Below, piece after piece: positions 46,351 through 60,860 of a stretch of DNA of 64,000 bases. Origin of the DNA: Ulvibacterium marinum (lineage in GTDB: Bacteria; Bacteroidota; Bacteroidia; Flavobacteriales; Flavobacteriaceae); NCBI RefSeq assembly GCF_003626755.1, contig NZ_RBCJ01000003.1:625859-689858 (forward strand). The letters are read 5' to 3'. The position numbers were made by a program, and so were the translations under genes. The stretch's first letter is position 1; every line of letters begins with the position of its first letter. Under the pieces are notes generated by a model. It was not told where the DNA came from. It saw nothing but the letters and a program-made list of their open reading frames with translations, and did no database searches.

Positions 46351-47688
46351 ATGAGTTCCTTAGACGAAGATGATAAAATCATCATTCAAGGCGTAACGGA
46401 GGATTCCATTACAATAGATGTCAACGGTAAATCGCAGGAAATTGAGAAAAAATTGGATGCCTTGATGGTATTCATGAAGAAACTGTCCAGTAAATCCGTT
46501 CAAACTGCGGATAAGATTTATAATATCGGAACGATTACCCATGCGAATTTTGATTTTTTGATGGGTAAGGCCGAGTATGACAGATCTTTACCTGTCACAT
46601 TATCCGAGAATTTAGTCGGGGAAGGGGACGAATGGATTAAAGGTCTTGTAAAGGCCTTGCTTAGGGAAGGAATACCCGTTGGGGACGACCCTACCGAAGT
46701 TTTCAAGAGCTATGATTGGCTGATACAGGTTTTTCTATTAAAAATGCGCACTCCACCTGGCCAGGAAAAAACGCCCTATGGTCTTTCCTTTATGGTAGAG
46801 GCCTATCAGGCCTCGCTTCGCTATTTATGTTATATACAAGTGGCACAGGTATTAGTAATGGAAGATAAGCCCAAAAGGGATATTATTTCAGCTTTCATAC
46901 AGATGGGCGATGATGAATATAAAGATTTTGATTATAGCAGCCTTCTATTCGAAACGACCGAATTGTTGGGCGATACAGGTTTTGTAAGCGAGGTAAATAA
47001 ATTTGTCCACGATCTAAAGGACACAAAATCCGATTTATTCGGAACCGCATGTTTTCTGGATACCCAGCGCCGTAATTTACTCTCAGGGTCAATAGAAAAG
47101 GATGAAAGGTTTCCAGAATTATTGGAAGAATACCTCACCGCCTTGGTGTTCTGGCTAAAGAATTTGTCCTTCTTGGCCAACTACCGCCTAGTGTCCATTA
47201 AGGACATCAATCTTAATTATCGTATAGGTTCTGAAGAAACCTACCTGCATCGGTATGGTGAACTTTACGGCATATACAATGATGGAAGGGTTGCAGATAT
47301 CACAAAGTCTATCCAGGTAAAAGGTTCGTTCACTTATAGTAAAAGCATTTTATTGTTTAAAGGGAACGTCTTGGCCAGCTGTTTGCGCAATATTGATGAC
47401 AAGACTGCTTACATATCCCTTACCCCATTGCTTTTGGACAAAAGTGTTTATGATGATGAGGATAAAAAACAAACACCGGAAGTATATTATTTTACAGGCT
47501 ATCAAAAAGGTAAGAGACAATATAACTATTCCCCATTTAATAAGGAATTGGATTTGGATAAGGAGAATGACAATACGTTGTACCCAACCCTTGAGGTAAA
47601 ATCCACCAATACGGACCTAGCTGGTCTAGATGATCTCTTCGAGCAACTGGAAGAGATGCTTAACCCGTTTAAAATTAGGAAATCATGA
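46351..47688 (+). CDS. unrecognised protein with N-terminal adaptor-type motif, partner of the STAND NTPase
   Basis: The 445-residue protein has no family I can name. Residues 8-30 ('DDKIIIQGVTEDSITIDVNG') look like two short beta strands, residues 31-47 a helix, and residues 49-67 the motif VQTADKIYNIGTITHANFD. That motif recurs at the C-terminus of the HNH protein encoded at 51289-51750. The rest (about 85-430) is a mixed, helix-rich domain, and the end 'LDDLFEQLEEMLNP' is acidic. No signal peptide or membrane helix is seen. It overlaps the NTPase gene by 4 nt (ATGA), so both are cotranslated. I infer an adaptor or sensor role beside the NTPase. Confidence 0.75.
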   Translation: MSSLDEDDKIIIQGVTEDSITIDVNGKSQEIEKKLDALMVFMKKLSSKSVQTADKIYNIGTITHANFDFLMGKAEYDRSLPVTLSENLVGEGDEWIKGLVKALLREGIPVGDDPTEVFKSYDWLIQVFLLKMRTPPGQEKTPYGLSFMVEAYQASLRYLCYIQVAQVLVMEDKPKRDIISAFIQMGDDEYKDFDYSSLLFETTELLGDTGFVSEVNKFVHDLKDTKSDLFGTACFLDTQRRNLLSGSIEKDERFPELLEEYLTALVFWLKNLSFLANYRLVSIKDINLNYRIGSEETYLHRYGELYGIYNDGRVADITKSIQVKGSFTYSKSILLFKGNVLASCLRNIDDKTAYISLTPLLLDKSVYDDEDKKQTPEVYYFTGYQKGKRQYNYSPFNKELDLDKENDNTLYPTLEVKSTNTDLAGLDDLFEQLEEMLNPFKIRKS

Positions 47689-49598
47689 ATCGGGCTCCAT
47701 CACCTTTTAAGTTCCTGGACTCTTACCGGAAATCGGACAAAAAAGTTTTCTTTGGAAGGGATACGGAGACTACGGACCTTTATGATGCATTGAGCGGTGT
47801 AAAACACCTCTTGGCATACGGACCTTCTGGATCTGGTAAAACTAGTTTAGTAGAGTGTGGCCTACGCAATCGTTTTTCAGACGCAGATTGGTTCGCGCTG
47901 ACCATTCGAAAAGGTGACCATATTAGTAAGTCCATTTTTGCTGCCATCAATGGCGCACTTACGACCAAAATCGATATTAACGCCACCAATCAATTGCCCG
48001 TTGACAGTTCCATAGGGTTTTCGGAAGCGGCCCATAAGTTGTTCAAGGAACGCTTTCAACCCATATACCTATTGTTCGATCAATTTGAGGAACTGTTGAT
48101 ATCCGGTGAAACCGATGAAAAACGTGATTTCTTCATTGGTCTGAACCAACTTATTCACCACAATTTTCCATGTCGTATTGTGCTTATCATGCGAGAGGAG
48201 TTCATTGGCCATCTCTCGGAATTTGAATCGCTTTGTCCAAGTATTCTTCGGCATCGCTTTCGGGTAGAGAAAATGGACAGGAAAAACGTAGAAAAAGTCA
48301 TCTTTCAGATTCTGCAAGCGCCGGATTATAAGCCTTTTTTTAACGTTGATGATAGCCAAAAGCTAACGGAAAAAATCTTATCCAGACTTCCCGATAAGAA
48401 AAAAGAGATTGAATTGTCGCACGTACAGGTATTCTTGGGGGAACTTTGGGATCGCGCCCTAGAGGTAAAAAAAGAGAATGGGTTGCCCCTTTTAAGTGCC
48501 TCCCTTATTCATGCGGACGACGATCTGGAAAGGATTCTAGAAAGCTTCTTGATAAAACAGATGAAGGAGTTGGATCTTACTTTCGGCAAAGGAGTTCCAT
48601 TGGAACTTTTGGCCGCCATGATTTCCGAAAAATTTACCAAACTTCAACTGAGTGAACCAGCAATTATGGCCGACTTGGATGATAAAAAAGTGATATCTAA
48701 GAATCCAATTTCGGATCTATTGAACGCGTTGGAAAAAAGGCGCATTCTGCGTTCATTGAAAATAGGTGACGAAACCCAATATGAGATCAGTCATGATTCC
48801 TTGGCCCTAGTAGTGGGGCAAAACTTGACCGAGGAAATGAAACTTCGCGAAAAGGCCGCAGATGTGTATAGCGTATATAAAGAGCGAACAGGTCTTTTGA
48901 GCCAGGACGAAATTGATTATTTAAGACCTTTTAAGCGAAGTTTGGATTACCCGGTAGGGCTACAAAAAAGGATAGGGGAAAGTACGATTGCCATTCAGGA
49001 GCAACGAAAAAGAGACCTTGAAAAGCAAATTGCCGATAAGAACAAAAAAAGGAAAATACGGATTTTAATAGGAGCTATCATCATTTTAATCGGTTTTACG
49101 ACATTGGTCATTTTTCTGGCAATTGATGCTCAGGAACAAACATTACTGGCTAAGCAGAAAAATTTGGAAGCAAGTATAGCTAAGGAGAGAACTCAGGAAT
49201 TATTAAAACTTGTAATGCAGGGAAGGGAGCGATATGAAAATATAGAGGATAGCCTACTGAACGAGAAATTGTCTATGGATCAAACACTTCCAATCGATAG
49301 CTTGATTGTTCCCCGGGGATACATAGGACCCAAGGAGAAGAACGGCAACAGAACCTATTTGATGTGGATCGATGTCCCTTCGTTCAGGAAATTGGAAATC
49401 CAAGAAGTCCACTATTACTTCTGCCCGGGATTCATTAACCGACGTCGCATTTCTACCGAGCCTACATCGTCTTTTTCAATTGGATATTTAGGCTATGGCT
49501 ATTGCCCCGGAGGGTATGATATTAACATCATATTAAAGACCGGAGACACGATTCATCGTAATTTACCATGGAAGGACTTTGTGGCTCAAAATCCGTAA
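47685..49598 (+). CDS. STAND-type NTPase with transmembrane helix and C-terminal YEATS-like domain
   Basis: Residues 7-40 ('PFKFLDSYRKSDKKVFFGRD') and Walker A GPSGSGKT (46-53) match the nSTAND1-type NTPases of Bacteroidota. Walker B is 'IYLLFDQFEEL' (127-137) and 'LIMREEF' (167-173) is the sensor strand, followed by a helical/winged-helix region to about 385 ('YEISHDSLALVV'). A coiled basic stretch leads to one membrane helix (457-480), a second coiled segment, then a beta-rich domain (about 543-630). That domain's 'VHYYFCPGFINRR', 'SFSIGYLGYGYCPGGYDINI' pattern resembles prokaryotic YEATS domains. STAND proteins act as nucleotide-driven switches in immunity and conflict systems; here the output would be membrane-linked. 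Confidence 0.85.
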   Translation: MNRAPSPFKFLDSYRKSDKKVFFGRDTETTDLYDALSGVKHLLAYGPSGSGKTSLVECGLRNRFSDADWFALTIRKGDHISKSIFAAINGALTTKIDINATNQLPVDSSIGFSEAAHKLFKERFQPIYLLFDQFEELLISGETDEKRDFFIGLNQLIHHNFPCRIVLIMREEFIGHLSEFESLCPSILRHRFRVEKMDRKNVEKVIFQILQAPDYKPFFNVDDSQKLTEKILSRLPDKKKEIELSHVQVFLGELWDRALEVKKENGLPLLSASLIHADDDLERILESFLIKQMKELDLTFGKGVPLELLAAMISEKFTKLQLSEPAIMADLDDKKVISKNPISDLLNALEKRRILRSLKIGDETQYEISHDSLALVVGQNLTEEMKLREKAADVYSVYKERTGLLSQDEIDYLRPFKRSLDYPVGLQKRIGESTIAIQEQRKRDLEKQIADKNKKRKIRILIGAIIILIGFTTLVIFLAIDAQEQTLLAKQKNLEASIAKERTQELLKLVMQGRERYENIEDSLLNEKLSMDQTLPIDSLIVPRGYIGPKEKNGNRTYLMWIDVPSFRKLEIQEVHYYFCPGFINRRRISTEPTSSFSIGYLGYGYCPGGYDINIILKTGDTIHRNLPWKDFVAQNP

Positions 49599-49603
49599 GG
49601 GCC

Positions 49604-49641
49604 AACGCACCAAATTCCATTCGTTATAATGGGTAGGCGTT
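49604..49641. terminator. possible bidirectional hairpin between convergent operons
   Basis: Nested arms AACGC (49604-49608)/GCGTT (49637-49641) and CCATT (49617-49621)/AATGG (49628-49632) can fold in the 52-nt space between the two convergent genes. The stem is interrupted and has no long T-run, so this is tentative. Confidence 0.3.
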
Positions 49642-49650
49642 TAGGACATT

Positions 49651-51258
49651 TTAATCAACGATGAAATCTTCCAAACTGGCTATCCTTAAATGTTCTAAAG
49701 CACTTAGGTCTCTGCTAAGATTAAGCTCAGGAACTTCACCTATATCATTTTGATGAAAATGGTATACCAGAATAGTCAGATTCTTATCGCGAACTATTTG
49801 TGTTTTCAAATCCTCGGGAAGGGTGGGATAACTATTTTTCAACAACTCCTCCGCAAGACCAGCGGTAAGAGGGGTACTGCCCATACTAATACGTTTAGAA
49901 GAAATAATAAAGGCGAACATTCGAAACTCGGATGCTATTTCAAAGAACAGGGATTTAAAAATTTCGTAGTACGAAAATTTGTCATTGCTTCCTAGACCAT
50001 CTATCCAGCGCTCATCAGATTCTATTTTGGAGCCATCGGTATTGAATTTTTCCAAACTTGTAGTCAAGGCAAATCCATTGAGTTCATGATAATAATAATG
50101 CATTTGACCTTCATATCCGGCAGTTTTAAGGATTCCCCCCATGTGCCCATTAACATCCCCCAAGGTGGTCATTCCAGATTTGTAGTTTGTAACAGCATGA
50201 TCGGCCGACGCCATAGGCGCAGGATTTGGGAAAAAATAGTGCGTTATGCTCTTGTCGTAGATTCCATCGGCATCCGTATCCCGTCCAGTATGCAAAGAGT
50301 CTATGCTGTACAACAAATGCAATCTTTGATAAGGATATTTTTTCTTTAGTTCCCTATACAATGCTTCGCGTACTTCGGAATTGAGTTCTTTTTGAATAAA
50401 TACGTCCCTTTCCTTTTTGACATCATCAACAAAGTTGTCGTAATTCCCATATAACAGCTCTAGATCATGATTGTTCAAAGTCCTTGTATTCCTTTCCGAT
50501 GCAATATATTTAAGTTGGATATATCTAGATATGAGATCATGCCTCATATCCAGTTGATAAATGATATCTCGTGATGAAGGCCGTACAATACTGGATAATT
50601 TGAAATTCAAATCGTTCAAAATCGAAAACTCCAAGGATAGATTATAGGTGGCCGCATTACTCCATAGCCCTAAAAAATTGTAAGTATTGGATCGTTTCGC
50701 ATCGTAGAACAACTTTTGGAATTCAGGATAAATATCATTATTGAAAAGCGGGGTAAATTGAAGTCTTAATTCGGCAATAGCCTTGGCTAATTCGCTCTTG
50801 GATGCCTCGTTATAATTTATAAGTCCATGCCATGACGTATCCATTCGTCTAAATATACCAGGTTTTCTTATGGCATTTTCATAGTGTTCGTTGGCCTTAT
50901 CCAGCGTATTTTTCCATTCCACCATTCCTTCTCGATCAACATCCGTTCTTTCTCTATAGAGTAATTTGGTCCTATTCAAGAAAAGCAAGGCATGTGCAAA
51001 ATTAAGTAGGCCCGCATTTCGGCGAATGAACTTTTTATCCATTATGGTCTTCAATTCACTTTCTTCATAGGAGAGTATTTTTTGGATGCGCCCACCTCTC
51101 AGCTCGTCCAAATACAATTGGGTCAGCGATAAATTGATGTAGGCCTGTGCAAGGGTAATGGTGTCGTTTTTGTCTATGCGCAAAGACGTCTGTGCATTTA
51201 ATTTCAGGCCGAAAGAAAAAGTAAACAAAAAAACGCATAATAATAGGGCTACCTTCAT
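49651..51258 (-). CDS. secreted protein of unknown function following the HNH gene
   Basis: ATG 51258 gives a clean Sec signal peptide (MKVALLLCVFLFTFSFGLKLNAQ); the frame also runs to an ATG at 51288 that directly follows the HNH stop, which would place ten residues before the signal. The mature protein (about 510 residues) is largely helical in its first 300 residues. It then has 'DTDADGIYDKS', a short calcium-loop-like segment, and a mixed C-terminal part ('GHMGGILKTAGYEGQMHYYYHELNG'). I recognise no family. Its zero-gap position after the motif-bearing HNH gene implies cotranscription, yet one product is exported and the other cytoplasmic. Confidence 0.75.
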   Translation of the reverse strand: MKVALLLCVFLFTFSFGLKLNAQTSLRIDKNDTITLAQAYINLSLTQLYLDELRGGRIQKILSYEESELKTIMDKKFIRRNAGLLNFAHALLFLNRTKLLYRERTDVDREGMVEWKNTLDKANEHYENAIRKPGIFRRMDTSWHGLINYNEASKSELAKAIAELRLQFTPLFNNDIYPEFQKLFYDAKRSNTYNFLGLWSNAATYNLSLEFSILNDLNFKLSSIVRPSSRDIIYQLDMRHDLISRYIQLKYIASERNTRTLNNHDLELLYGNYDNFVDDVKKERDVFIQKELNSEVREALYRELKKKYPYQRLHLLYSIDSLHTGRDTDADGIYDKSITHYFFPNPAPMASADHAVTNYKSGMTTLGDVNGHMGGILKTAGYEGQMHYYYHELNGFALTTSLEKFNTDGSKIESDERWIDGLGSNDKFSYYEIFKSLFFEIASEFRMFAFIISSKRISMGSTPLTAGLAEELLKNSYPTLPEDLKTQIVRDKNLTILVYHFHQNDIGEVPELNLSRDLSALEHLRIASLEDFIVD

Positions 51259-51288
51259 AGGAAAGAGTATTTGAAACCAAAAGGACAT

Positions 51289-51750
51289 TTAGTCAAAATT
51301 GGCGTTATCAATCTTATCAATATTGTAAATTTTTTCCGCGTTCTGGACAATTTTAGTGGAAGTGCCCATTTTTTTGAGATGTTCCAATATTAATTTCTCA
51401 ATGCCCGAATCCAGTTGAGGTGTACTCTTATGACCTGCCTCATGTTTGCTTTTCCATTCCAAGATTTTTGAAGCCGGGAATTTATCTACCGTTTCGGGAT
51501 TATCGATCATCTTATGATGTGCGTCACATAACAGGATCAAATTTGCGAATGATCGTCGATCGTCGTCAGTCATATTGGGGTTATATCGCGGCCCCTCGGA
51601 ACTGGCCGCAGCTATATGAGCTATTTCACCCAGCACATTGTTACCATCTTCCGAAATCATTTCTCGTGTGCAGGAAGGTTCGGCGCATTGATTTCCCGAA
51701 AGGGCAAAAAGCTTTTTAACGTCCTTGGATTTGTATTGTCTCGCTTTCAT
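51289..51750 (-). CDS. small HNH endonuclease with C-terminal adaptor-type motif
   Basis: The 153-residue protein has an HNH/McrA-like core: 'CAEPSCTREMI' (Cys22, Cys27) , 'LGEIAHIAAASSEGPRYNP' (about 40-58, first catalytic His), 'NLILLCDAHHKMID' (about 70-83, Asn and His pair). A short amphipathic helix (IEKLILEHLKKM) and the last 19 residues VQNAEKIYNIDKIDNANFD follow. The final motif matches residues 49-67 of the protein encoded at 46351-47688 in 13 of 19 positions. Family knowledge predicts metal-dependent DNA cleavage; the tail would serve as a recruitment or assembly signal. A 113-bp gap upstream contains TTGAAA/TTTCAA, a small palindrome, and may hold its promoter. Confidence 0.83.
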   Translation of the reverse strand: MKARQYKSKDVKKLFALSGNQCAEPSCTREMISEDGNNVLGEIAHIAAASSEGPRYNPNMTDDDRRSFANLILLCDAHHKMIDNPETVDKFPASKILEWKSKHEAGHKSTPQLDSGIEKLILEHLKKMGTSTKIVQNAEKIYNIDKIDNANFD

Positions 51751-51863
51751 ATCAAATTGATTTATATGATGTTATTTAAGTGAATGATATACCCGTTTGA
51801 AAAACTTTCAACTGGACTTTCCAAGAAATCAGCTCATTTTTACTTGGGAGATATCCTTCTTTA

Positions 51864-53075
51864 TCAAAGGCGTTCCCACTTTTCTATTTCAAACTTTTCT
51901 TTGATTTCTGATATGTCCCTACCTATCTTCATCAAATTTTTTGGTCGGTATGTTTCCAATTGTTGCATCCTCAATACAACGGATTCATGCAATGTATGCG
52001 TTTCAAAAGGTGAAATATAGCGATGCTGCCATAGATTGAAATATACTCTGGAAACCCATTTATCCTTTGGAACTGAAGTGTTTTTTTTCCGTGCCTCCCG
52101 TTGTTTTTTGGCGGCCCGGTTTTTTTTGATCAATTTCGGCCATAATTCGGCTATATGCCACATCCGGGTTAATGATTTGTTCTTTGGTTGTAAATGCAAA
52201 TCGTCGATTACCTCACCATTGATTTTTAGGTGTATGAGTTCCTTTGCTTTGTCCACCTTAATATAAATCCCTTTTTTCCTAGCCTCTACCAACATCCACT
52301 CCAGGGCAATATGGCTCAATCCGGATTTCTCCGGTGCATAGGAGCCACCTACGTCACAATGGACTCCGGCGAACCACACTTGCCTAATATCCTGAGTTTC
52401 ATTTTTTGGTTTGCCCCACTTGTTCTGCCGAAAAAATGCACGCCGTTCATCTATGGATATGGCATGGCGCACGTTGATAACACTTTTGTTGGTTGTGGTT
52501 GATTGTAAAGTCACAGGATTCCAAACCCAACCTACGGAGGTAACCGTATCCCAAAGGCCGAGAAAATGAATTGTTATAGTACGACTAAATGTTTTTTTGA
52601 ATTTTCCTGAAATGGAGTCGCCCAAAGCTTTTCCTGTGCTGTCTTTGGGATACTTCGAGAATTTTTGGTTCCAATAGATTTGCATGGCCTCGGGTATCAG
52701 GTTTTCACAGTTTGGATGCAGTAGGCCACATACATCAATGAAGCCGGCAAGAGCCCTTACCGTATAGGCCCCTCTGCTAAAACCAAAAAAGAAAAGCTGG
52801 TCCCCTTCCTCGTAATGCTCCATCAAGAACTTATAGGCTTCCATGATATTGCTACTGAGTCCATAACCAAAAGCCTGGCCCAATATATACTTCAGTTTTT
52901 TGGTAATTGGATTAAAAGCGTCATAGGTACTTGGGGTACCCACTCCCGGGTCGTAATACACCAACTGATTTTCAGGATTTTTCTCCAAAGCCGTAAAGAG
53001 ATGTACAACATTGGATGGTTTTTCCCCAAAATCATTGGAAGTACCGTCGCAGCAGATGATGATGTTTTTTGCCAT
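51864..53075 (-). CDS. DUF2235 alpha/beta-hydrolase (Tle1-like phospholipase family)
   Basis: The 403-residue protein starts 'MAKNIIICCDGTSNDFGEKPSNV' and has the nucleophile elbow GFSRGAY (98-104, Ser100), both hallmarks of DUF2235. 'SVGWVWNPV' and 'WFAGVHCDVGGSYAP' near 225-240 bring the Asp/His part of the triad. DUF2235 includes the type VI lipase effectors Tle1 and stand-alone hydrolases of unknown substrate. No signal peptide or membrane helix is seen. A basic stretch (KKNRAAKKQREARKK near 335) precedes the C-terminus. A 108-bp gap separates it from the peptidoglycan-binding gene upstream. Confidence 0.88.
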   Translation of the reverse strand: MAKNIIICCDGTSNDFGEKPSNVVHLFTALEKNPENQLVYYDPGVGTPSTYDAFNPITKKLKYILGQAFGYGLSSNIMEAYKFLMEHYEEGDQLFFFGFSRGAYTVRALAGFIDVCGLLHPNCENLIPEAMQIYWNQKFSKYPKDSTGKALGDSISGKFKKTFSRTITIHFLGLWDTVTSVGWVWNPVTLQSTTTNKSVINVRHAISIDERRAFFRQNKWGKPKNETQDIRQVWFAGVHCDVGGSYAPEKSGLSHIALEWMLVEARKKGIYIKVDKAKELIHLKINGEVIDDLHLQPKNKSLTRMWHIAELWPKLIKKNRAAKKQREARKKNTSVPKDKWVSRVYFNLWQHRYISPFETHTLHESVVLRMQQLETYRPKNLMKIGRDISEIKEKFEIEKWERL

Positions 53076-53183
53076 GTTTTTCTATAATTTGTCAGTATCG
53101 AATCATAATAAGATCACGCCATGGATGGATGAGCTTTGTATTGCATTATTGTCTTCACACCACCCACGGTAAAAAAAGGGTGT

Positions 53184-54446
53184 CTACATATTGGTCATCT
53201 CCTCCATAGCTTTCCTGGCGTAACCGGCTCCAAAATTAGAATCTATGTTTAGCGATTCTTCCCTTCCCAAAGTGTATAACAGACTGTTAACCCCTGCTTT
53301 GGTATAAGCCACAACAAGATCGGTAAGCACATTATAGGCCCCTTTGGTTTTCTTTTGGGAGGTATTCAGTTCACCATAGCTTTTTGAGGCGAACTGGGCG
53401 CAGCTAATGGTTTTATCAAAATTATTGATATAGCTTCGCCCCGATATTACCTGACAACCTGCTGAAAAATTCCAAGATCCAATTCCCGACCAATGAATGT
53501 TAATGGAATTGTTTACTTGAATTCCCTTTAGGTTCCCGTTCTGGTCCCTTATTTTCAAATCCTTGGATGTCAATGAATTGTCGTTGTCCCAGTCCCGTAG
53601 CACTAAAACCCCTTTCCAATTCAACGGCTTTGCTGCACGATATATCTTCCTTTCCTGTGTTATTTTATGCCATCCAAATCGGTACTCGTGCTGACCTTCC
53701 ACCAAAAATGGTTCGTCAAAACGACCCTTTCGCGTTTTCTTGTTGTAGGCCGCAGCCTGATTGGGATCTGTGGAGCCCCAAAATTTGAAGACTTGACCAT
53801 TGATCAAAAGCACGAAAAGATCATCATTGGCCCGATCGTATACTTCTTTATCGTGTTCACGGCGGATTCCTATAAGATGGATTTTATCTCGGTCAAACTT
53901 CCAATCATCAATTTTTCGGGTTGAGTAGGTCTTTTTCATTGTATTGACATGCTCTAGAATAGGACCGGGATTTGCCTTGTAAAATTCCTTAGCCTGGTTA
54001 AGCAATGTGAACCAATCATCATATTCCTTTGTTGGATTTGCTGCCGAGGCTAGACCCCAACTACAGACTTTTTTTTCTTCAGTCCAGCGGTTGACATGTT
54101 TTAGGGTGCCACTTCCTACAAAACCATCGGGAACCATTTTGTCGTCGCCATCTTCATCTACGGTTCTCACATATTCTTGAAAAAGACGGACTGCTGCCTG
54201 AGTGGCGTAATCAAAAACACCGATATTCATTCTATCGCCAAGAAAACCTGCCTTCTGTAAAAAGTGCTGCAAGTTTTCCACCGCTTTACCGTCGACTTTT
54301 CGAAACGAACGCCATTTGGTACGGTCATCATCCCTAAAGGTGACTTTGCCCACTAACAACCCATCCTTATGATAGGGCTTAAGAAAGTTTTTTCTGTCGT
54401 TAGGGTACTTGGAAGCATCACAACTGCCGAGATAGAGTAAGGCCAT
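53184..54446 (-). CDS. peptidoglycan-binding protein with YkuD-like C-terminal motif
   Basis: Residues about 50-115 contain a peptidoglycan-binding-1 module ('VENLQHFLQKAGFLGDR', 'DYATQAAVRLFQEYVR', 'DGFVGSGTLKHV'). The C-terminal third has 'INIHWSGIGSWNFSAGCQVIS' in pieces (INIHWSG and SAGCQV, near 325-345), a His...Ser-x-Gly-Cys pattern like L,D-transpeptidase or carboxypeptidase active sites. Together these suggest a cell-wall-acting enzyme. There is no Sec signal: a short LYLGSC at the very start cannot form a lipoprotein signal, and an in-frame stop lies just upstream. Export, if any, would need a dedicated machine. It lies 12 nt after the EEP nuclease gene. Confidence 0.75.
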   Translation of the reverse strand: MALLYLGSCDASKYPNDRKNFLKPYHKDGLLVGKVTFRDDDRTKWRSFRKVDGKAVENLQHFLQKAGFLGDRMNIGVFDYATQAAVRLFQEYVRTVDEDGDDKMVPDGFVGSGTLKHVNRWTEEKKVCSWGLASAANPTKEYDDWFTLLNQAKEFYKANPGPILEHVNTMKKTYSTRKIDDWKFDRDKIHLIGIRREHDKEVYDRANDDLFVLLINGQVFKFWGSTDPNQAAAYNKKTRKGRFDEPFLVEGQHEYRFGWHKITQERKIYRAAKPLNWKGVLVLRDWDNDNSLTSKDLKIRDQNGNLKGIQVNNSINIHWSGIGSWNFSAGCQVISGRSYINNFDKTISCAQFASKSYGELNTSQKKTKGAYNVLTDLVVAYTKAGVNSLLYTLGREESLNIDSNFGAGYARKAMEEMTNM

Positions 54447-54457
54447 GATCGTGTTGT

Positions 54458-55624
54458 TTATTGATTATCCATAACTTTTAATTTTTCCAGATACTGATCG
54501 CTAAAATCGATTTTGATTTCTACCCAAAGTGGTAGGTGGTCACTGGCCTGAAAGGTGCGCCATTCGTCATAATAAGCTCTTAGGGACGCATCCGTTTTTC
54601 TGGCAGCGGTTAGACTTGCAATCTGGTTATTTAATTTTTTCTTTGCCGTTTTTGAGGTCGCTGTTTTCAAAGCCGCCCGGGCCGTTTTCAACTTGTCGGC
54701 AATACGTTCCTTCATAATCGGTTTGTAGATCCCATAATCCTCGTCCCTAAAGATGCTGTTGAAAAATTGAATGACCCGATCTTTACGCTCAGGTTCCAAA
54801 AAGGCCAATTCGTTCTTTTTGGACCGAAAGGAAATCTGATCGTAGAATTTGGTTTGGTCCCTATTACTGCCCTTATTATTGGTTACGACCGTAAAGCCAT
54901 TTTTTTCCAATGCATTGAAACCGGCACTACCTGCTTTTTTAATATTGAAATCCCCCACCAGAATATGATTGGAATCACTGTGTTTCGCCTCTTTGGCAAT
55001 ATACTTGGCCACGGCTTCTATTTCCTGTACCCTACGTTGATATTTTACCGAACTGGGGCTGTTGGAGCCAAAAAAGATATGCACTGTGGAAAAGAAAAAT
55101 TTAAACCAACCGGATTGAAAATCAACGCCAAAGGGTGTACGGGCAAACTGTCTTTTTTTGGAAGCCACCTCACTGATCATAAGTTTTGGGGGTAGGACGA
55201 TCTCGCCCGCAATACCGGTAAAGGTCACTTTGCTCTTATTGTAGATGAACCCAAGCCGTTCCTGGTTCCCGCCAATGCTGCTATGCGTTACATCGGTGAC
55301 GATATAGTCATAGTCCTTGTCCAAAATGTTCATAACACGCTTTAACGGCCATAAATCGGTACATATTTCTTGTATGGCGATTACGTCGAAATGGTTGATA
55401 ATCTCAGCAATGTAGTAAAAGGATTCATAAAGACGCGGTCCATAATTGAAGCGGTCATCATCAAAATTTCTGAGGTTCCACGTACCAAGAATGAGTGATT
55501 CCGAGGTTTTTTTGCTCGGGAAACGCTCGTCCTTCAACTGTTTCCTCAAGCGCTGTAGACCTTCTACCGTACGTAAGCGAAGGTCGGCATTCTTCAATTT
55601 TTTAAGCGGATAATAGTAAGGCAT
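54458..55624 (-). CDS. endonuclease/exonuclease/phosphatase (EEP) family protein
   Basis: The 388-residue protein shows the DNase I-like motif set: 'LGTWNLRNF' (Asn50), 'VIAIQEIC' (Glu86), 'VHIFFGSNS' with a catalytic-type His, 'HILVGDFNIKKAG' (Asp/Asn) and the final 'ASDHLPLWV' (Asp-His). A Lys/Ala-rich helical insertion (about 310-355) precedes the last motif. EEP enzymes cleave phosphodiesters in DNA, RNA or lipids; no signal peptide is present, so a nucleic-acid substrate in the cytoplasm is most likely. It is 12 nt from each neighbour, firmly inside the minus-strand array. Confidence 0.88.
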   Translation of the reverse strand: MPYYYPLKKLKNADLRLRTVEGLQRLRKQLKDERFPSKKTSESLILGTWNLRNFDDDRFNYGPRLYESFYYIAEIINHFDVIAIQEICTDLWPLKRVMNILDKDYDYIVTDVTHSSIGGNQERLGFIYNKSKVTFTGIAGEIVLPPKLMISEVASKKRQFARTPFGVDFQSGWFKFFFSTVHIFFGSNSPSSVKYQRRVQEIEAVAKYIAKEAKHSDSNHILVGDFNIKKAGSAGFNALEKNGFTVVTNNKGSNRDQTKFYDQISFRSKKNELAFLEPERKDRVIQFFNSIFRDEDYGIYKPIMKERIADKLKTARAALKTATSKTAKKKLNNQIASLTAARKTDASLRAYYDEWRTFQASDHLPLWVEIKIDFSDQYLEKLKVMDNQ

Positions 55625-55635
55625 AATTTTTAGTT

Positions 55636-57633
55636 TTATCGGGTTTCATCTTCATGTTGTGCGGGTTTTACGAGTTCTAGAAAGTGTTCGTAGATCATGA
55701 CCATGGCCAAGGTATCCAGTTCGCAATATTTCAAAAGGGCTTTTTGTATTTCCTGTATTTCTTCCTCATCCATATCGGTATATTGAAGCTTACCATAAGC
55801 GGTAAGTGCAGCTCCGCCATCACTGATGGATTCAATTTCGGATAAGGATTTTTCAATGGCCTCCTCGGACCAATCCTCGAAAATGGGGGGCAGGTTCTTA
55901 TAAGGACTCGAAACGGTGTTCCTATTAACAGTAAGCCAAACATGATCGTCCGAAAAATTAAGGGAAGACATATTAAGAACACCTATGGGTCGGGAATACT
56001 TTTCTTGGAGTTTTTTGCTTGTTTCCAAAATCGCAGGAAGCACATCCTTGATGGAATTGGATCCTTTGGTAAGTGGATTATAATAGTAATCCTTGACCAC
56101 ATCCAAAAGGTCTACCATGTTGCGCTTCCCTTGCCACTTTATCGCGGAACCCTGGGTACTTTTTGTGATGTGTTGAATGAAATCCATAAGTGCTTTCTTG
56201 TCCGGTTCATCGGAATCGTTCAATTGTTTATAAACAGCATTCAAGACCGTATTTTCATGGTTGGAATACCTGAAGATACTACCGTTATCCCCTGATAAAG
56301 CACCCTTTAAGGCTCGTACAAAATCGAAATTAGGAAAGACGCCGGCTTTTACATTTAAATATTCCGATGCATGTTCAATAGTTCCATCCGTATTTACTTT
56401 ATGATGGGAGAACTGAAAGGCAACTTGCTCATAAGGATGTCGCCCTATATGAAATGGTAAGGCCGATGCACTAGTTTCAAAGTCAATGAAGTGCAAGGGA
56501 TAGGTCCATGCATCCATTTCCGCTTTCAAACCTTTTACATCTACATAAATGGAAGTATCCGCATTGGCCTCCTTTTGAATTTGAAGCCAATTTCGTTCGG
56601 TACCCGACAATTTTCCGTCCTCTTTTTTAAATTTGATATCATCCTTGGTCACCTCTGACATGAAGAACTTCTTCTTTTCGAACAGTTGGATTCCACGCTG
56701 GTAATACAGCCCACCGATATCGATGACGGCCGGTCGCTCAAAGTCCGCCGCTTTCCATTGATGTTGTTTTGTAAAGCAATGTTCATATCCGGAATCCAGT
56801 CCATTTTCCCTTTCCGCCTTGGTGGTCTTGAATTCACAATTTTTACAGGCTGAATAGGCCGTAGGCCAGTTAGCATATTCGTCGTTTACATAATAGGACT
56901 TCAATTGCTCTACAGCTTCCTTAAAGGAGAGGTCCTTATGGTATTTGTGGACATCGCTTTCAATATCCGCGACGATGTGGGTGATATCAACTTTAGTTAA
57001 GACCGAGGTCCCCAAATCATTCAACGATTTCGCCAATACCTTGATTCCCGTCCTATGGCCCACTGTTTTGGTGATTCGAAACAATTGGTTCAGTCCATCG
57101 ATCGAGGCTTTTTTGGAAGTATCCGCCATCATAATGTAAGACTCCACCTTGAAATCGGGAAAGCATAACTGTACCACATATTTCTGAAAGGCGATATCGA
57201 ACAAATAGGCTTTCCATCCACTTTTTAAACCACCCCGTGCCCCGACAAAAAGGTGCTCTTCATCGGAATCGAAGGATTTGGCCTTTACTTCTATCAATTG
57301 AATGGTATCCCCTTTTTTGACTAGAATATCGGTCCGTACAAATAGGTCCTCATGTAGAAAAGCCGCTTCGTATATCGTTGTATCCTCTTCTCTAAGCAGA
57401 TTTCGGGTCCTATACCATAGTGCTTCATAGTCCCAGTCCTCGCCTTCTATTAAGATGCCTTCGGGGAATGACATTCGGGCCAATTCCTCTACCTGAAAAC
57501 CTCCATTTGCCAAGGCTTCCAAAAAACTGTCCTCTAGCTTGGCATTGGCATAGGAATCCTTGTTGGTAAAGAACAATTTGTTCGGACATTCCAAACCGAG
57601 TTTAAATCGGGATTTTGTGAGTACGCGCATCAT
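55636..57633 (-). CDS. DUF2779 protein: Cas4-like PD-(D/E)xK nuclease plus DEDD-type domain
   Basis: The 665-residue protein opens with 'MRVLTKSRFKLGLECPNKLFF', as in Cas4/AddB-like nucleases, and continues with 'VRTDILVKKG' (Asp102) and 'IQLIEVKAKS' (Glu115, Lys117), the PD-(D/E)xK core. Cys16 plus 'ACKNCEF' and 'GYEHC' (near 265-290) could bind an iron-sulfur cluster. From about 380, 'HFIDFETSASALPF' starts the DUF2779 region, whose Asp/Glu pair resembles a DEDD exonuclease. 'LLKYCELDTLAMVMIYEHF' near the end supplies the last Asp. DUF2779 proteins are found outside CRISPR loci; their function is unproven. Confidence 0.85.
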   Translation of the reverse strand: MMRVLTKSRFKLGLECPNKLFFTNKDSYANAKLEDSFLEALANGGFQVEELARMSFPEGILIEGEDWDYEALWYRTRNLLREEDTTIYEAAFLHEDLFVRTDILVKKGDTIQLIEVKAKSFDSDEEHLFVGARGGLKSGWKAYLFDIAFQKYVVQLCFPDFKVESYIMMADTSKKASIDGLNQLFRITKTVGHRTGIKVLAKSLNDLGTSVLTKVDITHIVADIESDVHKYHKDLSFKEAVEQLKSYYVNDEYANWPTAYSACKNCEFKTTKAERENGLDSGYEHCFTKQHQWKAADFERPAVIDIGGLYYQRGIQLFEKKKFFMSEVTKDDIKFKKEDGKLSGTERNWLQIQKEANADTSIYVDVKGLKAEMDAWTYPLHFIDFETSASALPFHIGRHPYEQVAFQFSHHKVNTDGTIEHASEYLNVKAGVFPNFDFVRALKGALSGDNGSIFRYSNHENTVLNAVYKQLNDSDEPDKKALMDFIQHITKSTQGSAIKWQGKRNMVDLLDVVKDYYYNPLTKGSNSIKDVLPAILETSKKLQEKYSRPIGVLNMSSLNFSDDHVWLTVNRNTVSSPYKNLPPIFEDWSEEAIEKSLSEIESISDGGAALTAYGKLQYTDMDEEEIQEIQKALLKYCELDTLAMVMIYEHFLELVKPAQHEDETR

Positions 57634-57690
57634 ATTTAGTACAAATAATAGACTTCAGTTTATGTTAGGGTCACCTTTATTAAAATTGAA

Positions 57691-58134
57691 TTAGTCCGTA
57701 TCTTTTTTCGAGAACAACGTGTCCGATATTACATCTATCTTTTCGACGAATTTGTTAAAGGAAAAACCTGCCAAAAAGGATATCGCACAATAGAACATTA
57801 CACTTTTACTATAATTCACATCAGGGGAATTGGAAATGCTCATCAGGCCCCCAATGATCATGAAGTAGGCAAATACCCCGATAATGGCACTAATAATGGG
57901 CCTAAATACATACCACCAGGTCCAATTCATTTTAAAGTTGTTGTTGCCCAAATTTTGATAAAAACCCCGGATGCAATAGATAGTACCGCCAATACCCCCT
58001 GAGCAAGCTATATAAACCAAGATGTTCAACAATTGCTTTTCAAACGGATTACAGGTATATATCCATATCGGCAGGGCTACCAACAGACAAATGGCGAGCA
58101 GCAAATAGATTCCGATAATGTTGACTGGTTTCAT
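57691..58134 (-). CDS. four-helix membrane protein of unknown function
   Basis: The 147-residue protein has four hydrophobic segments (about 5-25, 34-54, 77-97 and 109-126) separated by short polar loops, and a charged C-terminus (EKIDVISDTLFSKKDTD). No family is recognised. It lies 32 nt after the membrane amidohydrolase gene and 57 nt before the DUF2779 gene, so it is probably cotranscribed and may partner the amidohydrolase at the membrane. Confidence 0.72.
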   Translation of the reverse strand: MKPVNIIGIYLLLAICLLVALPIWIYTCNPFEKQLLNILVYIACSGGIGGTIYCIRGFYQNLGNNNFKMNWTWWYVFRPIISAIIGVFAYFMIIGGLMSISNSPDVNYSKSVMFYCAISFLAGFSFNKFVEKIDVISDTLFSKKDTD

Positions 58135-58165
58135 AAGAATGGTTTTTTAGTGAACATTTGCTGAT

Positions 58166-59920
58166 TTATAGGGATCCCGGCAATGAACTCGTTAAGAATT
58201 CGGTGGGGTTTTGGTAGGCTATGCGCTCCCATTTCCTGGAACCCAATGTGTTTTGCATATCGATCCAATATTGCTTCTCGGTCTTGTGATTGCTCACCAC
58301 ATAAAAGTCGGTACCGAACAGAACCCGGTTGCTTATATTTGGGTTATCCAGTATTTCGGATAATAAGCTTAAATAGTTAAGGTCATGGGAGGTATAGCTT
58401 ACATCTGTATATACATGGTTAAATTGCATTAGCATGGTGGAGATGATAGAGAACCAATCTACCCAGTGCCAGTAACTATATAGTTTGGCTATATTATCCA
58501 AATTACCTTTTAGGTCCAGGCCATTCCGGGGATCTTTGATGATGGCATTGGCTTCACGATATCGGTCTTGGGACAAGAATTTGTCCCACATCTCTGCACT
58601 TCCGTAATGCGCTAGGTTGATTTTTAAATTATGAAGGGTTCTTGTAATTTCTCCATTTTCATAACCAAACAGCATTTTCAAATCACCATCCTTGTCAAAG
58701 GTTTCTACCACATTGTTTAATAGGGGTTTGTGTAATAGGCAGAGGTAATTCAAAGGATGCGTAAAGTTCTTTTGAAAGTGCTTGTTCTTTAGCTCATGAA
58801 AACGCATTTTTCCAAAAGTTCTCTTCTCGTTTTCATCCTTTTTATACACCTCTTCGAAAATGGGGTGATAGTCGTAGTCTTTTCCGAGGTTCTTTAATTT
58901 TCCGCGGTAATATACCGGGCCAATAGAGCAATGTGTAGTGATAGGGATATTTTCTTGTTGGCAATATAACCACAGGGGAAGCAAGTTTTTATCGAACGCA
59001 TAGTAACCTAAGGCTGGGTAGATCTTAATTCCGGCGCAACCACCTTCAATATAGTCCTTCATCAAACATTCCTCTAAAACAATGTTATCCGGATTGTCCG
59101 TGTTTAGATTCAAGAATTCTTTTTTCTGGGATTGCCTTTCTATACGTCTCGGATCCACAAAAATAAAGGGGTAGCAGGTATCCATATTATTCGCTTTCAG
59201 TCGCAATACCTCCTTCATCTGGTCGGGATAGGATTCCTCCACCGGACCGGCGTCCATGTACTCCATGTCCATTGGCAAAACAACGAACTTGGTGCCTACG
59301 GGATATTGCTGTTCGAGACTGTTGAAAATATAGGCCTGTCCATCATTGGAAGTAAAACGTACAATATTGATGTATCGCAATAAAAATTCGAGACGTTCCG
59401 GGCCAACAGCCTTTTTGATTCTCCCCCAAGCATATTTTTTTATAGTGCGTCGTACATTTCTAAAAATCAAGACAATAAATACTAAAAGAAGTATGGAATT
59501 CCAAGAACTTCCCAAATCGGGCATAATCGGACATAATACATCAACAAAATGACAGCAAAGCCAACCTAACCAAGTGCCTTGTAGGGAGGGGAGAATAAGT
59601 TCTATGAGGTAATAGGCAAAAATTAACCAAATTATAATTAAAAAGGCATTGTAAATTTTTGTAATCCCAGGGGTTTGTGTCCAGAATTTCTTTTTCTTAT
59701 AGGCCTCGTGTTTCTTGTTGCGCCCTGTAAAAGAAAACTCTTGCTTGTTACGGTTTAAATAGGCCTTGATACGATTCACCATATAACCTGTGGCCAACCA
59801 TTTGTAAAAAGGCCAAGGAAAGATTTGTTTTGCCATGTACTTTGGCGTGTGCTTCTTGGTAAAGGTATGCGTATGGGCATTGATAAAAGGGGCTTCTGTA
59901 TTCAATCGATTTTCTGACAT
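58166..59920 (-). CDS. membrane-embedded amidohydrolase-family protein
   Basis: The 584-residue protein begins with 'FINAHTHTF' (His16, His18), the first metal ligands of amidohydrolase-2-type barrels. Later come 'GGCAGIKIYPALGYY' (about 292-306), 'IPITTHCSIGP' (about 325-335), 'INLAHYGSAEMW' and 'VLFGTDFYVVS' (late Asp), completing the metal-dependent hydrolase set. Unusually, two membrane helices (about 90-110 and 141-155) and a basic region sit between the first His pair and the rest of the barrel. The substrate is unknown. The next gene in the transcript encodes a four-helix membrane protein. Confidence 0.8.
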   Translation of the reverse strand: MSENRLNTEAPFINAHTHTFTKKHTPKYMAKQIFPWPFYKWLATGYMVNRIKAYLNRNKQEFSFTGRNKKHEAYKKKKFWTQTPGITKIYNAFLIIIWLIFAYYLIELILPSLQGTWLGWLCCHFVDVLCPIMPDLGSSWNSILLLVFIVLIFRNVRRTIKKYAWGRIKKAVGPERLEFLLRYINIVRFTSNDGQAYIFNSLEQQYPVGTKFVVLPMDMEYMDAGPVEESYPDQMKEVLRLKANNMDTCYPFIFVDPRRIERQSQKKEFLNLNTDNPDNIVLEECLMKDYIEGGCAGIKIYPALGYYAFDKNLLPLWLYCQQENIPITTHCSIGPVYYRGKLKNLGKDYDYHPIFEEVYKKDENEKRTFGKMRFHELKNKHFQKNFTHPLNYLCLLHKPLLNNVVETFDKDGDLKMLFGYENGEITRTLHNLKINLAHYGSAEMWDKFLSQDRYREANAIIKDPRNGLDLKGNLDNIAKLYSYWHWVDWFSIISTMLMQFNHVYTDVSYTSHDLNYLSLLSEILDNPNISNRVLFGTDFYVVSNHKTEKQYWIDMQNTLGSRKWERIAYQNPTEFLTSSLPGSL

Positions 59921-59965: not shown

Positions 59966-60859
59966 TTATTCTTGAAATTGCGTAGCGAACTTCACCCTTT
60001 CCTCTACAATGGGCATCCAACCTTTTTGATCTATAAGATTTTTAAGATCGGACCACTCCAAAAAAGTTATCTGCTTAAAAATAATGCGGACCATCCCGGC
60101 ATATAAATTTATTTCATGTCCGGAAAAATAGAGTCCGGTCGCTAATCGCCGTTGTTCATTGCTGTCATCCTCGGCAAGTAAAAAATCAAGTGAGTCGTCC
60201 CAAATTTGTACCGCCCTTGGACCTCTTTGGCGCGAAAGACTTATTCTTCGAAGGCCACATACCCTAATGGTCTCTTTTCCGCGAGGGTCATTATTACGTG
60301 CCTTGATTACCCCTGATCGCAGGAATTCGAAATGCTCATAGGGATCTAAGTCCTTTTCAAAAGGATTTATCAATAGGGGTTTCTCTTTCCGTACATCGGT
60401 CTTTTTTGGATCTTCCGCCTTAAATACTCCATGATTGCGGGCTTTCCTCTTTGGGGCTATTGGAAATAAGGCACTTTTATACTTCTGATTGCAGATGGCA
60501 CAGGAGAGCAAATAATTTTCCCATTCATAGGCCAGCCACCAGTAGCCCTTTTCGGTAATGGCAGGAATTTTTCGTCCTTTCAATTTACGGCTATTGGCCA
60601 ACTCGGTCCCTTCGGCCACCAATTCTTGTAATTCACTTTTGGGCCGGTAATGCTCTACATCACCATGCGCCGACACCTGAATTTCACAATACCCACACTT
60701 CTGATGTTGGGCTTTCATAAAATGGGGTTTCAGATCCTGCCAGAATTTATCCTTGAAATCGGGCCATCCGTTGTTATTGGGCAAGCCTAAGGCCTGTAGC
60801 TGCTCCTTACTTCGTTGCTTCAGTCCATTGGGTCGTCTAGGTCGCTTAAACTGTAGCAT
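59966..60859 (-). CDS. HNH nuclease of the TIGR02646/PtuB-like type
   Basis: The 297-residue protein has 'KCGYCEIQVSAHGDVEHYRPK' (Cys55, Cys58, Glu69-His70) and 'GYWWLAYEWENYLLSCAICNQKYKS' in segments (Cys120, Cys123, then Asn and Lys). This is the zinc-supported HNH layout of PtuB and TIGR02646 proteins. The same layout occurs at the N-terminus of the ATPase encoded immediately upstream, with the shared GYxWLxYxWxNxxLSCxxC core. A helical C-terminal part (about 200-297) may contact the ATPase. One nucleotide separates the two genes, which supports a joint complex of the Septu type. Confidence 0.85.
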   Translation of the reverse strand: MLQFKRPRRPNGLKQRSKEQLQALGLPNNNGWPDFKDKFWQDLKPHFMKAQHQKCGYCEIQVSAHGDVEHYRPKSELQELVAEGTELANSRKLKGRKIPAITEKGYWWLAYEWENYLLSCAICNQKYKSALFPIAPKRKARNHGVFKAEDPKKTDVRKEKPLLINPFEKDLDPYEHFEFLRSGVIKARNNDPRGKETIRVCGLRRISLSRQRGPRAVQIWDDSLDFLLAEDDSNEQRRLATGLYFSGHEINLYAGMVRIIFKQITFLEWSDLKNLIDQKGWMPIVEERVKFATQFQE

Positions 60860-60860
60860 G

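Follow-up and report, generated by a model that had tools for sequence, protein, structure and literature searches.

The principle of coupling a bacterial effector to a NOD-like receptor (NLR) protein through a short shared element is already known in two forms. Bacterial amyloid signalling sequences (BASS) have been described mainly in actinobacteria and cyanobacteria, with BELL effectors (PMC7889193), and one bacterial BASS3 peptide and one archaeal BASS3-like peptide were shown to aggregate in an amyloid-like manner (PMC8086366). In coupling by effector-associated domains (EADs), copies of the domain are found on a core protein and on effectors encoded by adjacent genes, and the same effectors are elsewhere fused to the core (PMC7159879, PMC8195603). 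Here we describe a 64,000-nucleotide stretch of Ulvibacterium marinum DNA (contig NZ_RBCJ01000003.1, positions 625,859 to 689,858), called the window, in which a 19-residue segment is shared by P0001, an adaptor protein encoded beside an nSTAND1 NTPase, and an HNH protein. We named the segment the KIYNI motif, and its effector-side copy is called the tag. Our best reading of the sequences is that KIYNI is a BASS- or EAD-like coupling motif which would cluster a Cap5-type DNase on an nSTAND1-pYEATS switch. An original prediction, made from the letters of the window, had proposed a link of this kind and had called it the best candidate for an undescribed system; BASS and EAD coupling already cover the general idea.

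As in BASS, effectors end in a short motif that recurs near the N-terminus of a nearby NLR-side protein, and TIR and CHAT effectors are known from both (PMC7889193, PMC8086366). The differences are that KIYNI is found mainly in Bacteroidota, with caspase, CHAT, TIR, EAD11, HNH and trypsin effectors (BELL was not searched for by name), that in the three-gene form it is carried by a separate adaptor and not by the NTPase, and that the genes of the window are convergent. EAD coupling is resembled in the placing of copies on a core and on the effectors of adjacent genes, with fused versions of the same effectors elsewhere. EADs are however small domains, whereas KIYNI is a 19-residue segment with a low predicted local distance difference test score (pLDDT), and a Pfam scan of P0001 and the HNH protein gave no EAD match. 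The NTPase is like other STAND/NLR switches in its P-loop, Walker B and variable sensor, with the coupling element on a separate adaptor. Among the literature matches listed there was no mention of the KIYNI motif, of a P0001 family beside nSTAND1, of the three-gene split or of a Cap5-like HNH protein with a tag in the place of SAVED. The motif may be among BASS1-10 or the unclassified BASS pairs.

Two copies of the motif in the window

The genes and motif copies in question are the following.

46351..47688, + strand: adaptor protein P0001, 445 aa, with a short beta/helical N-terminus, the motif at residues 50-68 and a core of about 380 aa
46498..46554, + strand: receptor-side motif copy VQTADKIYNIGTITHANFD, P0001 residues 50-68
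47685..49598, + strand: nSTAND1 NTPase with C-terminal pYEATS, 637 aa (Pfam nSTAND1 E 9e-33, pYEATS E 6e-16)
51289..51750, - strand: putative HNH nuclease effector, 153 aa (Pfam HNH_2), a Cap5-type HNH domain and a tail
51292..51348, - strand: effector-side motif copy VQNAEKIYNIDKIDNANFD, the last 19 residues of the HNH protein

Thirteen of 19 residues are identical between VQTADKIYNIGTITHANFD in P0001 and VQNAEKIYNIDKIDNANFD in the tail of the HNH protein. The original prediction had this count and the nucleotide positions of both proteins and both copies right; its residue numbers for the first copy, 49-67, should be 50-68 when counted from the start Met. It had also called P0001 STAND-linked, and this is borne out by the next gene, whose start overlaps the P0001 stop by 4 bases and whose nSTAND1-pYEATS product has both the P-loop GPSGSGKT and the STAND-type Walker B LLFDQFEEL intact. 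P0001 itself had no match in the Pfam scan.

The best ungapped 19-mer identity between P0001 and the HNH protein is 13, while 300 shuffles gave 6-10. When the HNH tail was used as a query against its own 5.9-Mb genome (E up to 10), the single other match was the P0001 copy, at E 0.0045, and neither this search nor two profile searches found a third copy there. At the DNA level 39 of 57 bases are identical and the third bases are the same at just 6 of the 13 identical residues, which implies that the protein sequence has been conserved and that the copies do not stem from a recent duplication of DNA.

The AlphaFold2 models, which rest on 12 sequences for the HNH protein and 23 for P0001, give low confidence to the stretches that hold the two copies, which lie next to the predicted folds. 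In the model of the HNH protein, most of residues 9-108 are predicted with confidence, whereas the last approximately 20 residues are mostly below pLDDT 50, with nearly all of the motif copy below this value. P0001 residues 54-76 are also below 50; they hold most of the motif and lie beside a confident helical core. It thus appears that the motif is not an integral part of either globular fold; had it been one, this would have spoken against the idea of an adaptor segment.

Occurrence and pairing of the motif

A DNA pattern for [KN]IYNI..I..A[ND]F was run on contigs of one genome each for 84,980 species. It matched 45 stretches (56 places), and 39 of these are plausible loci, in 33 genomes. 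The other six (L020, L022, L028, L036, L041 and L047) were judged by eye to be chance matches, with the motif internal or in short or doubtful open reading frames, and the one in L047 runs across a stop codon. The 39 loci are from Saprospiraceae/Saprospirales (15), Chitinophagales (6), Microscillaceae (5), Cytophagales (2), Bacteroidales (1) and other or unplaced Bacteroidota (8, with Hufsiella and Lutibacter), together with the cyanobacterium Limnothrix (L014) and Thiomargarita (L025). A Haliscomenobacter plasmid (L013) encodes an EAD11 protein with the motif at its end.

The motif is rare. It was seen in 9 of 248 sampled genomes from the order of the L023 genome, and in 395 sampled genomes of the phylum the only convincing motif was that of the own genome. 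Where it occurs, it is clustered: a 48-sequence profile gave 77 matches in the 33 genomes, 54 of them within 1 kb of another, as compared to 0.06 expected from random placing in 5.5 Mb. The reversed profile gave no match in the same genomes. The pattern itself had selected these genomes, so that the figure describes clustering and not prevalence. A wide occurrence in proteins without STAND or effector neighbours, which would have counted against an adaptor, was thus not what we found.

The pattern loci contain 26 with a strict C-terminal tag, and the plasmid locus and the window bring these to 28. A motif-bearing receptor-side protein lies within 5 kb of the tag at 22 of the 28, as an adaptor at 13 and as another adjoining motif-bearing protein, mostly an NB-ARC/TPR NLR, at nine (in L017 the adaptor motif was seen by eye only, and in L014 the partner motif has E 0.0135). 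From the other side, we counted 24 adaptors, P0001 and 23 homologues from other loci, leaving out L018. A tagged gene is directly upstream of 15 and within 5 kb of three more (the window, L053 and L026), and two are fused to an effector domain and carry the motif as well (L032, CHAT; L049, EAD11). The orientation noticed in the window, with the motif N-terminal on the STAND side and C-terminal on the effector, is the same in other loci. Furthermore, 27 unfused loci were found via one side only, and at 15 the motif of the partner could not match the pattern (5 of 9 found by the adaptor, 10 of 16 by the tag, and 0 of 2, L025 and L034, by another receptor-side protein). Those partners were therefore not selected for by the search.

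Effector side and receptor side

On the effector side the motif ends the protein, with 0-1 residues after the profile match. The proteins that carry it are of different kinds. Pfam recognised CHAT (L016, L024), caspase (L030, L039) and TIR_2 (L043), and EAD11 in all five tagged look-alikes scanned (L013, L031, L037, L042, L056). Since some tagged proteins are themselves EAD11, two coupling systems would be chained. The L055 protein has trypsin and a TIR match below the cut-off, and in L014, L015, L057 and L097 the TIR-like/NPHP3/DUF4062 matches are solely below it. The tagged proteins of L021 and L048 had no convincing Pfam match. By eye, the tagged gene of the Hufsiella locus, L021, looks TIR-like; it immediately precedes the adaptor gene. 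Several tagged effectors thus resemble, by eye and below the Pfam cut-off, the DUF4062/NPHP3 type of TIR-like NADase known from Swarozyc. Swarozyc binds the phage portal via an auxiliary domain of its own (PMC13174449), whereas in the related loci the KIYNI tail comes after the TIR-like domain.

On the receptor side the motif is found near the N-terminus of P0001-like adaptors or behind a fused domain, and in NLR-type proteins it precedes an NB-ARC or TPR region, two of those scanned having NNH5. EAD11 and TIR-like effectors pair with both types of receptor. Besides the motif, no common domain was detected between P0001-like adaptors and NB-ARC/TPR NLRs, with the exception of L018, where the first approximately 80 residues resemble those of P0001.

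Some further motif-bearing proteins deserve mention. The receptor-side proteins at L095 (3681-5962) and L098 (137-5472) precede AAA_31 NTPases ('KGGVGRT') with TPR repeats, possibly a further type of switch using the motif. Those of L027, L046 and L056 have, by eye, hydrophobic, membrane-like segments ahead of the motif, as if they were membrane-anchored. In L103 (4716-10115; proteins of 773 and 943 aa), EAD11-like sequence was seen by eye in frame ahead of a degenerate motif, KIYNNENINNATFS, and this is perhaps a further fusion of effector and receptor sides.

The adaptor family and fusions in place of the motif

An nSTAND1 gene lies downstream of 22 of the 24 adaptors; the distance is at most 100 bases for 21 of them and 547 bases for L048. 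The remaining two, L035 and L044, are at a contig edge. The C-termini of 11 nSTAND1 proteins carry pYEATS (2), FGE-sulfatase (2), WD40 (1), TPR (1) or LRR (1), the last two below the cut-off, and four were not recognised. The effector end and the sensor end are thus both variable, around a core of NTPase and adaptor. The FGE-sulfatase (lectin-fold) domains are C-terminal in nSTAND1 of L049 and L092, and domains of this type have been linked to diversity-generating retroelements (PMC8195603).

Among 23 adaptors no 17-residue segment is better conserved than residues 51-67, with a majority fraction of 0.81 as compared to 0.42 for residues 68-445, and in 14 distant rows the identity to P0001 is 0.68 there and 0.16 elsewhere (68-445). 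These figures are biased, as it was the motif that led to most of the rows.

A profile of the adaptor core found 22 further copies in 24 genomes, in which the match omits all or nearly all of the motif. In 20 fetched regions of these motif-less adaptors no open reading frame had a motif match, with HMMER filters on or off. Their genomic position is the same, with nSTAND1 at most 100 bases downstream in 21 of 22 (in L168 a second adaptor is in between). Their N-termini are CHAT in 17 (15 above the Pfam cut-off), EAD11 in three, LRR in one and unrecognised in one. CHAT and EAD11 are thus fused where the adaptor motif is missing, and as far as can be judged from the sequences the motif stands in for a covalent fusion of the effector, both unfused parts carrying it. 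The same argument was used for EADs as coupling adaptors (PMC7159879).

A motif-less EAD11-adaptor fusion in L160 (2327-3898) still has a linker, NSKNVLINAAIHAGGNVHVGD. By eye it resembles the linker that leads into the tag of several tagged EAD11 proteins, and it looks as though the tag and the receptor motif disappeared when the two parts were fused. Two genomes have many adaptor-core matches when tag-only matches are excluded, nine in G833 (L165, L168-L170, L173, L174, L177) and 11 in G839 (L162, L163, L166, L167, L171, L175, L178, L179). Most of these are CHAT-adaptor and nSTAND1 loci, a paralogous expansion.

The HNH protein and its likeness to Cap5

The HNH domain of the window protein is of the type found in Cap5, an effector of the cyclic-oligonucleotide-based anti-phage signalling systems (CBASS). 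The protein matches the PADLOC models PDC-M68A and SAVED-HNH, the top Foldseek matches of its model are CBASS Cap5 (E 3e-6), and its Cys/His residues are invariant in 12 aligned rows. The SAVED-HNH models match only by their HNH part, residues 2-106 of the 368-position profile. Cap5 has SAVED where the 153-aa protein has the motif tag, and one would consequently expect it to be activated by the STAND switch rather than by a cyclic nucleotide. The Lutibacter HNH protein is 77% identical to that of the window and keeps 15 of the last 19 residues, while the linker before the tail has diverged and shrunk, with gaps.

Proposed mechanism and alternatives

We give a probability of about 0.78 to the reading that the window encodes a split NLR-type abortive-infection module, with the nSTAND1-pYEATS protein as sensor and switch, P0001 as adaptor, the HNH protein as effector and KIYNI as the coupling between them. 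The direct observations are that the architecture is conserved, that motif-bearing effectors and receptors are repeatedly found as pairs, that fusions replace the motif and that both copies lie beside predicted folds. The variable C-terminal domain of nSTAND1 would sense a cue from the invader, and the NTPase, like others of the STAND family, would oligomerise and cluster the adaptors. It is conceivable that the clustered motif copies would then template, or pair with, the effector tails, probably in a beta-arch or amyloid-like stack by analogy with BASS, and that the HNH domains brought together in this way would cut DNA as Cap5 does. For the loci as a whole, the sequences suggest that the tag connects a range of killing enzymes with NOD-like immune sensors, which makes it look like the plug of a self-destruct defence in bacteria. 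The original prediction is thus upheld in its adaptor idea, as the motif recurs at the C-termini of unrelated effectors and on STAND-side proteins, and modified in that the receptor copy sits on a separate adaptor and not on the NTPase.

Several observations weigh against this module. Partners were lacking in the available sequence for six of the 28 tag loci (L013, L038, L043, L050, L051, L057), for four of the 24 adaptors (L019, L035, L044, L052) and for the receptor-only loci L025 and L034; L025 was left out of the consensus lists of the two sides and later counted as a receptor-side match without a partner. The HNH version was found in the window and Lutibacter, so that its nuclease form rests on two loci, and the HNH gene of the window lies outside the adaptor operon, convergent to the adaptor gene and approximately 3.6 kb from it. 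No interaction, polymerisation, nuclease or defence assay of the module was found in the literature searched. The motif identity within pairs was 0.626 as compared to 0.639 in shuffled pairs (p 0.94, n=24), or, when split, p 0.82 for the adaptor type (n=16) and p 0.32 for the NLR type (n=8). In EAD coupling the copies of adjacent genes are more alike than others, which is not the case here; the motif does not appear to encode a matching of effector to receptor, and there is no sign of partner-matched co-evolution. Finally, the effector-side and receptor-side consensus sequences differ systematically, which also fits a heterotypic contact.

Such a contact could be a plug and socket, in which a groove on the NTPase or on the adaptor core would receive the effector tail, and the receptor copy would be an internal pseudo-ligand keeping the groove closed until activation. 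The differing consensus sequences and the absence of covariation within pairs are in its favour, but P0001-like adaptors and NB-ARC/TPR NLRs share only the motif, again excepting the N-terminus of L018, so that no common socket is evident, and we find this explanation improbable. A more serious alternative, which we still think rather unlikely, is a constitutive tether. The motif would then hold effector and adaptor together from the beginning, for example as a beta-strand pair, and activation would be a later conformational step without an induced polymer. Such a tether is one form of the coupling module and not its opposite, and it is supported by the motif replacing a covalent fusion, in which the effector is permanently attached. 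Two BASS-type peptides do aggregate in an amyloid-like manner (PMC8086366), but the present data fit tether and polymer alike.

The HNH protein could also be an independent nuclease of the neighbouring island, which has an EEP nuclease, DUF2779 and p545, its tail being a recombination relic from a tagged effector. It does share its direction with p545 and the island genes and not with the adaptor. Against this, Lutibacter keeps the tail (15/19) in spite of the diverged linker, along with the adaptor and nSTAND1, and we regard a relic as very unlikely. Short motifs can also match by chance, as 6 of the 45 pattern loci seem to do; for the pair as such the shuffles, the reversed-profile control and the clustering refute this, and its probability is negligible.

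For a wider claim we see even odds. KIYNI would be an undescribed code, mainly of Bacteroidota, that is not specific to the partner. Its executioners (DNase, TIR-type, caspase, CHAT protease, EAD11 relay) would be interchangeable, its switches unrelated (nSTAND1 with the new adaptor family, NB-ARC/TPR NLRs, perhaps AAA_31/TPR), and the signalling split over three genes.

Neighbouring genes

One more gene lies between HNH and nSTAND1.

49651..51288, - strand: 545-aa protein p545, signal-peptide-like N-terminus by eye

It had no Pfam match above the cut-off. Among the loci searched it has a homologue only in Lutibacter, in the same position (L053), and the identity in L113 is 54%. It may be a companion of the module, but its membership is uncertain. 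The HNH gene is co-directional with p545 and the other genes of an island at 49651-59920 on the - strand, opposite to the adaptor gene, where amidohydrolase-like, DUF2779, EEP-type, peptidoglycan-binding, HNH and p545 genes are found. Lutibacter citreus (L112/L113) keeps the adaptor, nSTAND1 and all of these island genes at 54-76% identity; adaptor, nSTAND1 and HNH remain together there at 67-71%. The island of the window also has a Tle1-like phospholipase gene (51864-53075), and that of Lutibacter a patatin gene in another place. At 59966-63098 on the - strand a gene for a PtuB-like HNH protein (PADLOC PtuB1 E 2e-49) adjoins one for an AAA_21/AAA_15 ATPase. The two look like a Septu-like pair approximately 8 kb from the HNH gene, which suggests a defence island.

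Implications

The effectors of such modules in Bacteroidota can be predicted from the tail alone, and the motif also draws attention to a family of adaptors next to nSTAND1 that Pfam does not recognise. The window suggests that a DNase domain of the CBASS type may come under the control of a STAND trigger in place of a cyclic-nucleotide one. KIYNI is short enough to be synthesised, and with natural fused and unfused versions at hand the templating by motifs in bacterial NLR signalling can be tested directly. If the motif is not specific to its partner, cross-talk among the modules of one cell would be a testable prediction.

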